Assembly (NCBI GenBank): GCA_037042185.1
Contig: JAXQJY010000031.1
Coordinates: 1,550,001-1,614,000, forward strand
Length of the DNA: 64,000 nucleotides
Reading direction: 5' to 3'
Source of the DNA: Sordariomycetes sp. S80-01Y
Taxonomy: Eukaryota > Ascomycota > Sordariomycetes
A program made the translations under genes and the position numbers. Of this stretch, positions 4,862 through 21,587 are shown piece after piece. The notes beneath the pieces are model-generated. The model was not told the DNA's origin. It ran no database searches and saw nothing but the letters and a program-made list of their open reading frames with translations. Every line of letters starts with the position of its first letter. Position 1 is the stretch's first letter.

Positions 4862-7800
4862 GGATCCTCGCGGCGCTTCCAAGACTTGGGAGGCGGCGCG
4901 GCTGGTCCTGCAGACGGGCGCATGGAACCCTGGCGGGGTGGGAATCGGTGGGGTGGCAGGGCTGTCCTGGAGGCGAAAGCTCGGCCGGATGGTGGCCCCC
5001 TGAAGGTACCTGAATTAGGTACTGGTGCCGCTGGTGGTAAGTAGTAGGTATCTCGAGCGGTCGAGGGTACTTCTGGAACGGCGAGGGCGGCGATCACGGT
5101 CTTGGCTCTGGTTCCTGAAAGTCACGTTGCTGGCCAGCGAGGCATGGGGGCTCGACCGTAGCATAGCATAGCATAGCATGCTGCTTAGAGCGTCATGTGG
5201 AGGATGTGGCACAGGCTGACCTGACCCTCTGAGAGGCCGCGGCCTGTACTTGACGTAGCTGGAGCCTGTCACCGATTCCGCCGCGATCCTGCGGTTCCGT
5301 GGCTGCTGAAGGACCGCATGGTGTGAGATGGATTGATACTTGGAAGCGGCGCTGAACCTTGGTCTTTGCCAAGTGCACGCTCCATACGGAAGCCGATGTT
5401 TAGGTGCCGGCGGGAGTTGGGGATCCTGTAAGCGGACTGACTTTGCTCCCTGGCCGTCGTGCGCTCTGCATTGTCATCCGCAGGGGTTCATTACTCTCGT
5501 TTTGTGCATTGTTCAGAGCTACACGAGATAGTTCCCCTTCGCTTCGAGACCCGAAACGTGTTCTGAGCCGCGTCCGGCGCTGACATGCAACGGCTACATA
5601 CGCATAGGGGAGCTACCACATCAGGCCCTGATCACCACGCCCAAGAGTCGACCAAGTGCTGCAGAGGCGCCGACACAACCGATAGCATCAGTGGCGAAAC
5701 GGCCAAGCACTTGGCTCGCGACGTGACAGCTTTCTCAGGAAGGCTAAGTTGCCTTATTCTGGAACTGTAGGACAGAAGCCGTAGATGCCGGATCTGGTCG
5801 GGACCCTTGCCGTGCATCTCTCTGAATCCATCGACAGACCGCAATGCAGGAGACTTCCCAAGTCCGATTCCTTCGATCCCCGATTCTGGAACCGTTCCAA
5901 GCATTTCAACGCGACAAGTGTTCTTTGACGGATAGACGCCTCAACACAATTCTCCCCCCAATGAAGGCCTACGGGGGGCTCACCGGGACTTCACCCACAG
6001 GGGGAGACCCGCTGCCCGGCGCCGATCATTCTCCACTTCGGGAATAGAAACCACGGCGTCCGAAGGTCTGACCTCCGCCATCGCGCGGAACCTCAAAGGC
6101 GCAGCGAAGGGGGAGGCGGCCCAGAGCACGAATTGTGTAGCGATGCCGCCCGCTGCCAAGTGTGCGCCAAGGTCTTGTTCGTCGCCTGAATGATATAACT
6201 TTTGCCTTCCTCTGATTCTTTTCCACGAAGAAATGCTGCTGGAAGGCGTTCCGTACCAGCCCTACCGTCTTGCTGGCAGCGGTGCCGAGACGGAGAGGAC
6301 CAGGGAACGCTTTCTCGCTGGATCGGGCTGCTTCGGCCGGGATGCTACTCCTATCCGGCGCCGAAGGTCAGCACGTCTCTGGCGGTCTGGGCGCTGGACT
6401 TATCCGGAGAACATTCGACGCCATCAGATCCTGATTCGCCGTCCAGAGTTCCACGTCTCAAACAGGTCCCAAGCATGTAGGCAGAATCGAGGGAAACTTC
6501 CATCCGCGCAGGTGGCAAGCCGTCGCTTGTTTCACAGGTTCGACTAGGCTTCAGCCCGCAACTCGGCTAGCAAGCGATGTTCGCCTCTCACGTTTCTCGC
6601 TTTTGCCACTTGGGTTCTTCAATGTCGCGACACAGCTGGTGCGCGCTTGTTGAGAGGCTCTGCGCGCGACTCGTCCCCTGATGGCTGGCTGGCCCATGTC
6701 GGGACCCTGACACTGGTGCTGTTGATCGCAATGAATGGATCTTCAAAGCTGGGGGTTCTAGATCGACCCTTTCTAGTGAGCTCTGCTGATTTCTCAACTG
6801 GTCTTGCTGAAGTCTTTCTTCAACCGCTGTGAATTTGAAAGGAATATCTCCTTTGTTCTGGGCCCAGTGAGAGGAAGGCGTGCTTGTAGCGGCTCAGCTC
6901 CCTACAGTCGTCTAAGACATAGCAAAAGGCTTCAGAGAAGATTAGATCCAAATTTCAAGGATACCTGAAGCTCAATTGGCTGCGGCTTCAGGGAATACAC
7001 CTGGCCAGACGGGCTGCGAACAACGGGCTGTTGGTCGCTCATACGCGATGATACTCTAAATTGGCGTATAAAACACAACAATATGTGTATCGCAACTTCA
7101 AGCAAAACTCCATGGGATATTGGGCTTGACGGCCTTTGCGGGGGTCCGCACTTGGACCAAGCTCGTGCTTGCCGCTCGTCCCTACCGTTGGACAAATCTC
7201 ATAGCTGCCTGACAGTTGTATCTCTGGACAGCCTGGGTACTTGCGAGATATTTTCAAAGCATAACGTTCGCGGGAAACCGTGTACCTAGTGTCGTTCTCT
7301 TGACCAGGGGTTTCGGCCAGGGAAGTGCTGTCCACGTACAAGTGAAGCCATCTTCTGGCCTCCGCGCAAGGGGATTTGCAGCGGCCTACGTAACAGGTGT
7401 CGCTCGTCCCGAAGAGAAGCCTCCCCAAAGTATCCTGCGAGGAGCGCTAGGTACAGCTTTTCGCTTCATGACGCCATGAAATTCGGTCTCGTCCGAGATA
7501 TCACTCGATCCTACCCGTTCATCCCTGACGGTAGTGTCAACCCAGTGCGTACCGAACGAAAGCTTTCAGATAAACACAAATCACTCAAAAATAGACCAGA
7601 CGCGAGCGCTGATCTGGGGACGAAATCCTTAGCGCCAGTGTTGGACATGCTCCGAGAGCTACGCAGGTACTGGACCCTGGAGGTAGGATCGTTGGTCCCT
7701 GGATGATGATGATTGCATGTGTACCGTCCTCTGTCTCATCATCTGGTTGTATTCAGAATTTCCTTCAGACTTCCTCATTTCCTTTGGCAGAGAGCCGCAC

Positions 7801-12830: not shown

Positions 12831-14094
12831 TTGAGCTCGTGCCTCCCGTTTCTTGAGTTCACAGAAATTTCTCGCCCTTGCGTCGCGCCAATCACTGAAT
12901 TCCCCAAGCAGGGAACGAAGAAGCGTAGGAGAGGAATCTCATGGATACGTTGCGCAACAAAGAATGTAGGGCCGTGAGAAGGATAAGGACGGATGCTGGA
13001 GGACAATACGCGTAGGATGTTTGTTAAGGTGCAAGATGCAGGTGACTTGTGGGAGATATTGCTTGTTAACTGGGGATTACGCAACGCGCTCGGGATGCGA
13101 TCGCTGCAAGCCGGTTTTAGGTGCTTGGCTGATGTCAGTGATAACGGGGATTATCTGGGGACTAACAGCAGGAAGGTCCATTCGCTGAAACACATGACCC
13201 GCGTCTGCCCGTTTTCGGAGTAGCTTAACAGCCTCCATCGTGATCCACGCTCCAAGACGCGCAACACTCACGGTCTTGAAATTTTCCTTGGCTTGAAGTT
13301 CCCAGCATGATGGCAGCGCTCAGGTGATTGACTCTTCGCGGGTTCGGCACGAGCAGTAGTCTCCACCCCTGAAGTTCATGACTCGACAAATATGAAGATG
13401 CGAGGCGAAGCTGGCAGGTGGGAGAAGCCGTGGGTCAATCGGAGCCGAATACCTTGACATGGCAGAAAAAAGAAAGGAGCGAGGCGTTCGGGATTGAAGA
13501 TTGGCGGGCGAATGCGGACCTCGGGCCCGCGTCCCCGGCCGGCCAGATCCCGGCCAGGCCCACTTCTCTCCGGGTCGTCGGCTCACTCGTGGCCCGGTTC
13601 AGGGTTCGAGGCCGGACTCGGTTCTCTGGGCAGTGGGTGGACTCGGGGGGATAATACAGCCCATGATCGAGGTGTGTAGCTGCTCTAATGTAGGAGTGGT
13701 TTGCTAGAATGCGTCATTATCTCCAACATCGTTTATACCCCTCAGCACGTGCAGGAGGGGGGAGTGCACCAGTGTGGCGTCATCCGGTGTACCGTTGTCC
13801 ATGAGAAGATGATGGTAGTTACATGACCATTTTTGCGCGGCCTTGAGATGAAGTAGGGGTTCTTGGAAGAGACATCGAGGTGGTTTGATTGATTTGCTAT
13901 GCTGTCTGGTATCCCTAGCACCGTTACCGCCCAAAATGAATCCTCTGACCCCGTTGGTCTCCAACAACCATCGTCTTTGCGTGCCGCGCAACTATCGGAA
14001 GCGGCCGTGAGGTGTTCCGAGGCGGAAGCACTCCATATTTGTCCGAGATGTTGTTGAATCACATCGTGGTCACTGCATGCCTCGAGCGGCGCAT
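12831..14094. other. Intergenic, no gene recognised
   Basis: Holds the promoter and leader of the dicarboxylate transporter (from 12831) and the 3' region of the metallothionein gene. A GC-rich patch at about 13500-13640 opens several short overlapping plus-strand frames with no recognisable product. Confidence 0.5.
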
Positions 14095-14229
14095 TTAGTG
14101 CTGCAAACAGGTTAGCATCAAGCGAGGTCAGAGGTTCGTTTTCTGGCTGGGACCTACGCCGCAGGAAGAGCAAGAGCAGGAGTCGCAAGAGCCGGAGCAG
14201 TTGCAGCTGGAGCAGGAGCAGGGAGACAT
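14095..14229 (-). CDS. Metallothionein, 25 residues, two exons
   Basis: Exon 1 is 14229-14158 (24 codons) and exon 2 is 14100-14095 (His plus stop). Between them is a 57 nt intron with donor GTAGGT, branch GCTAAC and acceptor TTGCAG. The peptide starts MSPCSCSSCNC and has eight cysteines at positions 4, 6, 9, 11, 15, 18, 20 and 23. Apart from Met, Pro, Asn, Asp, His and two Gly, the rest is serine. The CxC-xx-CxC-xxx-C-xx-CxC-xx-C spacing, with no aromatic residue, is that of small fungal copper metallothioneins such as the Neurospora protein, which has seven cysteines. It binds Cu(I), and possibly Zn or Cd, through thiolate clusters in the cytosol for storage and detoxification. A TATA box lies about 106 bp upstream. 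A longer frame over the same DNA (13742-14416 minus) reads the cysteine codons as leucines and is a shadow. Confidence 0.88.
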
Positions 14230-14334
14230 GTTGACTGTTGTTTTGGGTGAAGTGGTTGAACTTAAGTTGTGTTGCTGTTAATGTAGGATGAGCTTGGGAG
14301 AAACAAGACTCTAGAATGCGACACAACCCGAGCC

Positions 14335-14341
14335 CTTTATA
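14335..14341 (-). promoter_or_regulatory. TATA box of the metallothionein gene
   Basis: TATAAAG on the minus strand, about 106 bp before the ATG at 14229. This spacing suits a short leader of roughly 75 nt and a strongly inducible promoter. I did not find a motif I could firmly call a metal-response site. Confidence 0.6.
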
Positions 14342-17664: not shown

Positions 17665-20600
17665 CTAGGAAACCTTGTGCTTGCGCAACGTTAAGTCATG
17701 GGAACTGCTGCGACACTGAGCACCCATCTCAAAACACTCCAAGCAGACATCGAAGTCACCATCGTTACAAATAGAACAAACGCAGCGAAGAGCCCCAGCC
17801 GCAACCAATCGAGTGCATACATCACACCGCCTCGTCGATCCGCCTATCTCCATCAAGCTGGGCCCCCCCGTGAAAGTCACCATCGTCGATTTGGATATCT
17901 CTTCCACGAGCGAATTCAAGCACTGCTTGAGCGACTTGAGCATTGCCCCTCCTGGTCGCCCACCAGAGCAAACTCCGACCGAAGAAACCATGGAAGTCCA
18001 TGCAAGCATCTTCAATGCCAAGCAAACACGCAACAACTTCCGCGTGTCCATTCCTTGTAGCCGCAAAGATTGGCGTCGAGCCATACCTATCTTTCGTGTT
18101 TGCCAGACTTCCACACGAGCAGAGTTGCTCAACAACTCGCACGTGACCTTGAGCGGATGCTATGAAGAGCGAAGTGAGTCCGGAGATATCTTTGGCTTCA
18201 GTGCGTGCTCCGTTCTCGAGAAGTAGCTTAACCACCTCGAGATGCCCTTGAAAAGATGCCAAGTGCAGTGGCGTCCGATCGTAGTCGTCAATATTCATAA
18301 CGTCAGCTCCCTTCTCGAGAAGCAGCTTCACTACTTCGGTGTGGCCAGCGCTTGAGGCTCTGTTTAATGGTGTCTGTCCATGATTATCGGAAGCATCGAT
18401 ATCGGCTCCATTGTCAAGGAGAAGCTTAGCCGCATCAACATGCCCACTAATCATTGCTGAATGGAGCGGTGTTATTCCTGCTTCATGAGCAAGAGCTACA
18501 TTGGCTCCGTTCTCTAGAAGGAGCTTGATAGCCTCGATGTGGCCATTGCTTGAAGCAAAGTGGAGTGGTGTCCATCCGTCTTTATCCGTAGTGGAAAGAC
18601 TAACTCCCTTCTCGAGGAATAGCTTCATAACCTCGGTGTGGCCTTTATATGAAGCTAAGTGTAGTGGGGTCCATCCGTCTTTAATCGTAGGGGAAAGACT
18701 AACTCCCTTCTCGAGGAGTAGCTTAACAACCTCGGTGTGGCCAGTACATGAAGCTAAGTGTAGTGGTGTCCATCCGTCTTTAATCGGAGTGGAAAGACTA
18801 ACTCCGTTCTCGAAAAGTAGCTCAACAACCTCGGTGTGGCCATTACATGCAGCTACGTGAAGTGGTGTCCGTCCAATTTTATCTGGGGTCGTTAAATCGG
18901 CTCCCGCATCGAGCAGTAGCTTAACCACCTCTACGTGTCCCTGATGTGAGGCGTGGCTCAACGACGTCAACCGCTCACCATCTTCGGCTTTGACATCCGC
19001 CCCCTTCAATAAAAGAAGCTTAACCAAGTCGATAAACCCACACGCCGAGGCTGCATTCAGAGGGCTCCAGTCGTCGTCGCTGGTTAGGGCGACGTCGGCG
19101 CCCGCTTCAAGCAGCATTTCCGCAACTTCAAAGTGCCCATTGGCACAGGTGACTTCGAGTATTGTCCTTCCTGAGCTGCCTTTTTCGTTTGCACTATACT
19201 TGTGTTCCCGAAGGAAGTATTTCACAGTAGGAGTCAAGCCAAGTAGCGATGCATAATATAGAGGGCTCGATGTCCTGCTCTTCTTTGGCAGCGTTGCACT
19301 TGCTGACTCTTTATTTTTCCAGTCAAACCATTCCCTCCATGCATCGCAGGCAGCAGTACTTGGATCAAGCAGGATAATCGTGAGCCTCAGTATGTCGGGA
19401 TCGTTTGAGGCTCCCGCTGTTGTATGCTTATACCACGAGCGCGCTGCGTAATCTCGAAATGATCTCAGGGCATGGTTCATGTCGTCGTGAACGTCGTCCC
19501 AAACGCTGGGAATGATCATGTAACGGAGACACGCTCTAGCTAGCTCAGTGATTTGAATTGCTTCATGCGAAGACCGGAGTTGTTCGTTCGCCACCAGGAA
19601 CCCCTCTTTGCCAGGCATCTTGGATATGAAATATTGCTTGACCGAGAAATGGGTGAGATGCACAGTTCTCAACCCGATGTCGGGCGTTGGCGGCTGTTCT
19701 GATGCCGCGCTCCGAATCTCCAAGAGGGATCCGCATAGTCGCAGTATCTCGCTATCGACGTAGTCCTCATCGATGGAATCTGGCATCTCATCCAGAGGGA
19801 GATCATCGCGATCCTCGTTGATGAGCACGGCCACAGTGATTTCAGAGACTGTTAGGGGTCGCACAGCAAATGCTGCCCACCGTAATAGGGAAAAGGTGCG
19901 TAATCGTTCTTCTTCCGGGAAGCCTAGGATTTTATCCCAGTTCCGGTCATAGAGGCGCTCCAGTCCGGTAGGCGCCTTGTCAATGGCATTGTGAAGCTGT
20001 TTCTTGTTCCTGCCACTGCGGAGCTCAGACTTCTGAAGTCGTAGCCATAAGAATTGACCCTGGCAGCGGGTAGCCAGCTTCTGAGAGATCTCGCCTCTGA
20101 CGTTTTCGTCCTTGTTGTGTAAATGACTGTCGACAAGACTTCTAGAATATAATACGGTGTCGTGTTGAACGTCCTCGGGAGAGATCTTGTATTCGAAGGT
20201 CGTGATATCCGCCCGACGAACGATGCATTGTCGTATTTCGGGCTCATCGCGACTAGTAATCATGATGCGGGTGGTCGTGCCGGCGACTGCTTGCTGAACC
20301 ATCCTCAAGAAGCTGGACACGGAGCTTGTGTTGTCCGAGTCCCACCCTTCACCACAACCAGCGCATTCGTCCAGTCCATCCATAATAAAAGTGCATCCCG
20401 GAAAGGCGTGGACGACTTCACGAAATATCCTGCCAATGTCGGCACGAGTTGCTGCCTGGCCATATTGGGCTTCCCATCTCTCACACACCAGTTCGAATAC
20501 GTCTGGGTGACATATCAACTGAGCAATCCATGATCTGATGGCGACAAAGGGGTCCCTACGGCTCTCAAAGTCCGACGAGAAGAAGAAATGCGCTGCCGGC

Positions 20601-21587
20601 TTTTCAAGTACGGATGACAAGTGCTCGACTATCCTTGCACAGAGAACCGTCTTCCCGAAACCAGCGGGCCCGTTGACCCAAAGAACCTTGGCTGACTCCA
20701 GCGGGAAATCGGGAGAGGCCCAGTCCAAAAAGGAGGCTCGTGTCAGGATCCAGTCGCAGGTACCGTCCAATCTCGTCTGAACAGCATTATCGTAGAGTTC
20801 GTTGGCGGTGTAGCGTCCAAGCAGCCATGCGTGGAGGCCTTTACGCGTCTCGGCTGCAACAGTTAACAGGGCTCGATGGTGGGACAGTAGAGAACCAACC
20901 CTCACGCTGCCTCTCCAGCCGAGCCAAGATTTGCTTGTATTCGGTCAAGAAGTCTCTGTTAGCACAAGCCACTGGAAATTCAATTAGCTTGTGCAATACA
21001 ATATCTCGAGGAGGGACAGTACCATCCAGCTGCTCGAGGGCATCATCACCACTCCTTCCTTGCACGGGCGTTGTATCCTTTGCTCCATCGGGAGGTACCA
21101 GGTTGTGAAGATCTTGCACCAGCTGTCCGAGCATTGCCAATTTCAATTCGCATTTATCTTTGTCCCACATCGCCCATCTGAGCCTCTGCCTTCTCGACTC
21201 GGACGCTGTGCTTGGGTACGGCGGTGTCCGACCTCTCGCAAACAGTCCATGCTTGGGATGCCCGCCGCCTGTGCCATGCCTAAGCAGAGATATATCGTCC
21301 GCGTCACTGCAGATGGTTCTGATGATCGATAGGTGCTCATGGACCCTCGACTCTATTCGGGGATCATCGAGTGCTTTGCGATGGCCGCGCGATGTTGCTT
21401 CTTGGCCGAACCCAGCCGCCTGGCCCCATCTCTCCAGGCGGAGCTTCTCGGCCTCGAAGTGAGCGCCTAGAGCACGGGAGTCGTCCCCAAAGTTCTTCCA
21501 CGCGTCGAATCTCTGGGCAGCTTCCAAACAGGAGCTAAATAAGCCGGCGAGCCCCGCAAGTCCAGCGGCAAGCCCTATAGGTTCCAT
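17665..21587 (-). CDS. NOD-like receptor: HeLo - NACHT - ankyrin repeats - ZZ finger
   Basis: Exon 1 is 21587-20906 and exon 2 begins at 20853. The 52 nt intron between them (donor GTGAGG, branch GTTAAC, acceptor TGCAG) joins LERQ to PETRKGLHAWLLGRY. Residues 1-220 are a HeLo domain (GLAAGLAGLAGLFSSCLEAA, then FGDDSRALGAHFEAEKLRLERWGQA). The NACHT domain has Walker A GPAGFGKT at about 289-296 and Walker B TFIMDGLDEC at about 382-391. About 13 ankyrin repeats span residues 755-1200. A ZZ zinc finger (CDVC, CVCSIC, CLECF and a final H) closes the protein in a different frame at 17665-17830. The join to it must lie near 17825-17925, most simply through one more short intron (a GATAG acceptor is present), but the exact donor is unclear. 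Fungal proteins of this kind sense non-self signals and trigger cell death through the HeLo domain. Length is about 1270 residues. Confidence 0.82.
18571..18867. repeat. Tandem 99 bp coding repeats (ankyrin units of the NOD-like receptor)
   Basis: Three consecutive 99 bp units start at 18571, 18670 and 18769. Each encodes one 33-residue ankyrin repeat. By eye, neighbouring units differ at about 10-11 of 99 positions. The flanking ankyrin units are far more diverged. The similarity at silent as well as replacement sites points to recent duplication or gene conversion among units. Confidence 0.85.

Follow-up and report, generated by a model that had tools for sequence, protein, structure and literature searches.

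The minus strand of the 64,000-nucleotide stretch of Sordariomycetes sp. S80-01Y DNA analysed in this study (hereafter the window) very probably carries a genuine and easily overlooked fungal metallothionein gene. This assignment is supported by the Cys pattern of the predicted product and, above all, by a match to the Rfam family RF01504 (Afu_254), the consensus of which reads as a metallothionein ORF.

A short Cys-rich ORF with a putative intron before its last codon

Joining the segments 14229-14158 and 14100-14095 of the minus strand yields an ORF that translates into MSPCSCSSCNCSGSCDSCSCSSCGH, a product of 25 residues with 8 Cys (Table 1). This product shows the traits of the metallothionein superfamily: a length of 25 residues, eight Cys arranged in CxC/CxxC and an absence of Phe, Trp and Tyr. 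The initial annotation had proposed an ATG followed by 24 codons with eight Cys in CxC/xxC spacing, nearly all-Ser spacers, a 57-nt intron one codon before the stop and a TATAAAG 106 bp upstream. Each of these elements was recovered from the minus strand: the ATG and the Cys codons lie at the positions listed in Table 1, Ser accounts for 9 of the 12 spacer residues between the first and the last Cys, the sequence elements GTAGGT...GCTAAC...TTGCAG are followed by CAC TAA as exon 2, and the final base of TATAAAG is located 106 nt 5' of the A of the ATG. No ATG occurs within these 106 nt, and the reading frame contains a TAA at 14280, 16 codons 5' of the metallothionein ATG. Read without splicing, the frame stays open for 9 codons past exon 1, giving 33 residues that end with the tail CGVGPSQKTNL and lack the His.

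Table 1. Features of the metallothionein locus and of its vicinity (positions refer to the window)
Feature	Position	Strand	Details
Putative TATA box, TATAAAG	14335..14341	-	Read in the sequence; TATAAA at -112 from the start codon
CGCATTCTAG element separating TATA box and leader	14311..14320	-	Read in the sequence; possibly close to the transcription start
Putative 5' leader	14230..14310	-	G-poor; 14300-14230 aligns with RF01504
RF01504 (Afu_254) match, full model 1-158	14148..14300	-	63.8 bits, gathering 60, E 4.3e-8
Exon 1, coding part, MSPCSCSSCNCSGSCDSCSCSSCG	14158..14229	-	72 nt, 24 codons, ATG at 14229
Putative intron, donor GTAGGT, acceptor TTGCAG	14101..14157	-	57 nt; sequence motifs
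Branch-point-like GCTAAC	14111..14116	-	Branch A 11 nt before the intron end
Exon 2, coding part	14095..14100	-	1 His codon (CAC) and stop (TAA); translation
Overlapping long frame, 224 aa	14416-13742	-	ORF list; Leu-rich over the exon 1 bases
Second promoter-like block: TATAAA, CGCATTCTAG, CCTACATTA, same order as in the metallothionein promoter	13670-13743	-	Alignment

The locus matches an Rfam family filed as a small RNA

The window was scanned against all 4227 Rfam families. RF01504 was the sole family matched at the gathering threshold, by a hit spanning the leader and exon 1, and with 63.8 bits for a cut-off of 60 the locus belongs to the family by Rfam's own threshold. RF01504 is filed as 'A. 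fumigatus sRNA', type 'Gene; sRNA', with an annotated structure, and Afu_254 reportedly stems from a 2008 small-RNA survey. In the RF01504 consensus, taken from the printed alignment, a single AUG is found, at position 74 of 158; it opens MSPCSCNCCSSNCNSCSCCSCGL, a sequence of 23 residues including 9 Cys, which is followed by a UAA stop. As the only AUG of the consensus opens a metallothionein-like ORF, RF01504 looks like a metallothionein mRNA misfiled as an sRNA, and its status as a non-coding RNA family appears in doubt.

Alignment of MSPCSCNCCSSNCNSCSCCSCGL with MSPCSCSSCNCSGSCDSCSCSSCGH revealed identity at 17 of the 23 aligned positions, with all 8 Cys of the window product placed on Cys, and none of 2000 letter shuffles reached the score of this alignment. 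Both products start with MSPCSC and end with SCxSCSCxSCG; however, the consensus ORF differs from MSPCSCSSCNCSGSCDSCSCSSCGH by its nine Cys, its length of 23 residues, the absence of His and the lack of two residues mid-chain. At the nucleotide level, the single insert of the window relative to RF01504 is 6 nt long (i.e., two codons), and the differences between the two number 5, 4 and 4 (of 21 each) at the three codon positions, the third showing no excess. The leader (14300-14230), aligned to the first 73 positions of the model, is identical at 33 of the 71 bases compared. When scored separately, neither part reached the gathering value of 60: exon 1 obtained 35.9 bits, and the leader together with seven codons obtained 30.3 bits.

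No RF01504 match was found in 16 TGC-rich loci (133,843 bases) belonging to the 239 loci of the Cys-spacing scans described below, and none above the cut-off in 3 whole genomes or in 14 control genomes, although weak sub-cut-off matches were present in 1 of the former and 11 of the latter. The match is thus not generic to TGC repeats.

These data also bear on the view that the locus produces an Afu_254-type non-coding RNA with a function of its own, the ORF being incidental. The filing of the matched family as 'Gene; sRNA' and its annotated structure speak for such an RNA. However, (i) the sole AUG of the consensus opens a metallothionein-like ORF, (ii) the helices drawn for RF01504 fall within this ORF, the leader being drawn unpaired, and (iii) the window carries, relative to the structure, a 6-nt insert inside a helix and one non-standard pair. 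We therefore regard a non-coding function of the locus as most improbable.

RF01504 may correspond to the metallothionein of an Aspergillus species, for example CmtA of A. fumigatus. According to a passage of PMC6514546, cmtA (Afu4g04318) is the only metallothionein gene of that species. If RF01504 is indeed a metallothionein mRNA, Rfam-based annotation assigns sRNA status to a coding gene and a regulatory role to its transcript, and the model would serve as a useful detector of such genes.

The Cys pattern is rare in the window

The spacing C-x-C-x2-C-x-C-x3-C-x2-C-x-C-x2-C has one match in the window, and 100 dinucleotide shuffles of the whole window gave none. When the 60-nt core was itself dinucleotide-shuffled, which preserves its TGC-rich composition, an open frame with at least 8 Cys appeared in 9 of 20000 cases; the exact spacing appeared in none of them. 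Among the 24-codon open stretches in the six frames of the window, the runner-up has 7 Cys.

The spacing was also searched in IMG/VR and GTDB genome contigs, where it occurred in at least 120 and at least 119 stretches, respectively (239 loci screened). These 239 loci contain 871 matches, all passed through one filter; 18 of them, from 5 loci, lie in a short ATG-started ORF. Four of the 5 loci are poly-Cys-type repeats and the fifth, L058, is an out-of-frame shadow of a 147-aa ORF; no relative resembling the gene was found among the 18 filtered matches and the 15 most similar of the 871. The matches in the two collections are mostly repeats. Because it arises in TGC repeats and, once (L058), as a frame shadow, the Cys spacing alone is no proof of a metallothionein gene. 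The L058 case, located at 5283-5372 (minus strand) of a viral contig, is a 29-residue Cys-rich ORF that looks like a metallothionein and overlaps, out of frame, the 147-aa ORF, which has a signal-peptide-like start; it calls for caution in Cys-pattern searches.

The longer overlapping frame mentioned in the initial annotation does exist, with 224 aa (Table 1). Codon statistics were trained on 11 long ORFs of the window. Over exon 1, the plain codon score was -11.0 for the metallothionein frame, +2.3 for the long frame and +7.9 for one opposite-strand frame, the low value of the metallothionein frame being expected from its odd amino-acid make-up. With the synonymous-only score, the values were +5.3, +4.6 and, for one opposite-strand frame, +5.0. 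Two opposite-strand frames were positive on one or both measures, and codon usage over exon 1 does not clearly favour the metallothionein frame.

Might the Cys-rich reading then be a mere shadow of the 224-aa frame, or of a CTGCTC-type simple repeat? Cys-spaced shadows do occur, as the 5 loci above illustrate, weak 15-nt tandem repeats are present within the metallothionein stretch of the window, and the codon scores of exon 1 show no preference for the metallothionein frame. However, the 224-aa frame scores negatively on both flanks of exon 1 with the synonymous measure (-10.9 over the 62 codons before, -10.3 over the 119 codons after), its early ATGs all lie 5' of the TATA box, and Pfam and NCBIfam searches gave no match for it. 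Further, a repeat cannot account for the start context, the intron and stop, or the RF01504 match, which the TGC-rich repeat loci do not give. A shadow or repeat origin of the Cys-rich ORF is, on these grounds, quite improbable.

A putative intron would supply a terminal His

The strict signature GTRNGT...GCTAAC...YAG is found once on the minus strand of the whole window, where it corresponds to the metallothionein intron, and is absent from the plus strand; in 20 shuffles it occurred on average 0.15 times per strand. Loose intron motifs, in contrast, numbered 16 and 17 on the two strands for a shuffle mean of 13.85. As these looser signatures scarcely exceed the shuffles, support for the intron comes from the strict form. 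The GCTAAC hexamer is presumably the branch point, judging from the fungal consensus. Motif evidence by itself supports the putative intron well.

Splicing at these sites would be the only source of the terminal His, and retention of the intron would yield the 33-residue form without it. A metallothionein gene that is real but consists of a single exon of 33 codons, ending in CGVGPSQKTNL, is the alternative to be weighed here. It agrees with the frame being open for nine codons beyond exon 1 and with the RF01504 consensus, which likewise runs to a stop shortly after its last Cys (…SCGL-stop), but it leaves aside the combination of strict donor, branch and acceptor, which is unique in the window. 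It also deprives the product of the terminal His, whereas a histidine is presented as of interest for metal binding in what is described of the metallothionein of Heliscus lugdunensis. That protein apparently ends in His. If so, the one-codon exon codes for an established type of metal ligand, a point in favour of genuine splicing. We therefore consider the unspliced, single-exon gene unlikely.

A more elaborate proposal makes the intron a metal-selectivity switch: the spliced Cys8-His form would suit Cd/Zn, the retained 33-residue Cys8 form, with its neutral tail and no His, would suit Cu(I) better, and the efficiency of splicing under stress would set the metal handled, RF01504 being in addition a metallothionein mRNA catalogued as a small RNA. 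We give this combined proposal little credence. The one-codon His exon offers a simple test of whether splicing alters the metal preference of a metallothionein.

Promoter and surroundings of the gene

The CGCATTCTAG element that separates the TATA box from the leader possibly lies near the transcription start. CATTCTAG has only two sites in the window, both on the minus strand and each after a TATAAA. In the 1 kb upstream, metal-response motifs were counted against expectation: 1 ACE1-like motif for 0.95 expected, 2 STRE for 2.00 and 2 MRE-like for 0.86, with no Mac1-like or Yap1-like motif in this interval. These motifs are not clearly enriched, and no regulator can be named.

A second promoter-like block (Table 1) follows the metallothionein promoter on the same strand, ~604 nt further downstream. 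It aligns with a score of 33, which none of 1000 shuffles attained (largest value, 32), and the next best alignment elsewhere in the window scored 28. A second metallothionein copy at this place was ruled out, as no Cys-rich or metallothionein ORF follows the block and similarity to exon 1 is at chance level, with 153 of 300 shuffles scoring as high. The block is perhaps the relic of a duplication or the start of another transcript.

A Zn2Cys6 regulator and other domains encoded in the window mark it as fungal. On the same strand as the metallothionein ORF and starting 1264 nt past its stop, an ORF (12830-11346, minus strand) encodes a SLAC1-family anion channel/transporter (Pfam PF03595, E 1.2e-86), for which our guess is Ssu1-like sulfite export. 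A 1027-aa ORF (17822-20905, minus strand) encodes a NACHT/NPHP3-type NTPase domain followed by ankyrin repeats, an architecture known from fungal NOD-like proteins.

A model for the metallothionein gene

Taken together, these results make it highly likely that this locus of a filamentous fungus encodes a metallothionein, through a TATA-driven and spliced gene with a metal-binding product, and that RF01504 represents the messenger of an Aspergillus gene of this kind. In the model that we propose, a TATA-driven transcript would begin near 14310, translation would start at its first ATG (14229), and the 57-nt intron would be excised just before the last codon. MSPCSCSSCNCSGSCDSCSCSSCGH would be a cytosolic peptide in which eight Cys thiolates are arranged in CxC and CxxC pairs with mostly Ser between them. 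From its residue make-up, the peptide should bind soft metals through thiols: the Cys thiolates are predicted to hold Cu(I), Cd(II) or Zn(II) ions in one small cluster, and the terminal His derived from exon 2 could be a ninth ligand for divalent metals. RF01504 (Afu_254) would accordingly be read as an mRNA of this kind in Aspergillus and not as a non-coding RNA.

With only 25 codons and a last exon of one codon, such genes are too short for the length limits of most gene finders, and metallothioneins of this layout are therefore probably under-annotated in fungi.

Comparison with known metallothioneins

Pfam searches with the 25- and 33-residue forms, an NCBIfam search with exon 1 and a PDB sequence search with MSPCSCSSCNCSGSCDSCSCSSCGH gave no match, and a literature search with sequence strings of MSPCSCSSCNCSGSCDSCSCSSCGH returned no paper. 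As Pfam likewise has no match for the solved Neurospora protein, the database blanks carry no weight.

The initial annotation had likened the product to the copper metallothionein of Neurospora, whose gene also has an intron. The Neurospora crassa protein (PDB 1t2y) resembles MSPCSCSSCNCSGSCDSCSCSSCGH in the 25 residues of its solved chain, its CxC pairs, the SSCNC and SCSxCG segments and the absence of aromatic residues, but it has seven Cys, another spacing and no His. Its alignment score with MSPCSCSSCNCSGSCDSCSCSSCGH was reached in 12 of 2000 letter shuffles, which indicates a weaker sequence kinship. A passage of PMC4755600 gives the spacing of the Neurospora/Agaricus proteins (fungi-I, family 8) as [CXC]-X5-[CXC]-X3-[CXC]-X2-C. 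This pattern fails on MSPCSCSSCNCSGSCDSCSCSSCGH and passes on the Neurospora control; of the family 8 definition of seven Cys in ~26 residues, MSPCSCSSCNCSGSCDSCSCSSCGH fits the length but, with eight, not the Cys count. Cys spacing and Cys number thus rule out a Neurospora-type copper metallothionein in the strict sense: the product departs from the spacing as given in that part of PMC4755600, and eight Cys with a His fit the Heliscus kind better.

Two other filamentous ascomycetes can be set beside this gene. Fusarium oxysporum Mt1, by the description given in a passage of a review (PMC9036806), is a single metallothionein, needed for full Cu, Zn and Cd resistance and regulated by Zn. In Podospora anserina, the reverse primer applied to genomic DNA for PaMt1 in PMC2654708 runs from the ORF end into CTATAG. 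This CTATAG could mark the end of an intron located a few codons ahead of the stop, and thereby hints at a late intron in a further fungal metallothionein.

Among known proteins, the eight-Cys metallothionein of Heliscus lugdunensis appears to be the closest relative. Compared with the presumed Heliscus sequence, which text and PDB searches did not return, MSPCSCSSCNCSGSCDSCSCSSCGH has the same Cys spacing, a His that is likewise terminal and 17 of 24 residues identical; the seven that differ are mostly Ser here for Thr/Ala there. The features that the Heliscus (Neonectria) protein shares with MSPCSCSSCNCSGSCDSCSCSSCGH in the part of the literature that describes it are a small chain, eight Cys and a histidine, the latter being present here only if the transcript is spliced. 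It is introduced in a passage of PMC13107397 as a small fungal metallothionein with eight Cys, and the title of a study cited there (Perinelli et al. 2020, reference 45) calls it cadmium-specific and refers to a histidine whose behaviour differs between Cd and Zn. Copper is possible as the bound metal but not favoured, since the upstream region shows no conspicuous copper-response motif and cadmium specificity is ascribed to the nearest relative. The one extra Cys relative to Neurospora, to which the initial annotation drew attention, holds as a count (8 versus 7) but not as a novelty, because an eight-Cys metallothionein has already been described in Heliscus, as that passage of PMC13107397 records. 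The one-codon His exon is more useful than the extra Cys, as is the finding that RF01504 is likely misfiled, and any novelty may lie in the layout, with the His on a one-codon last exon.
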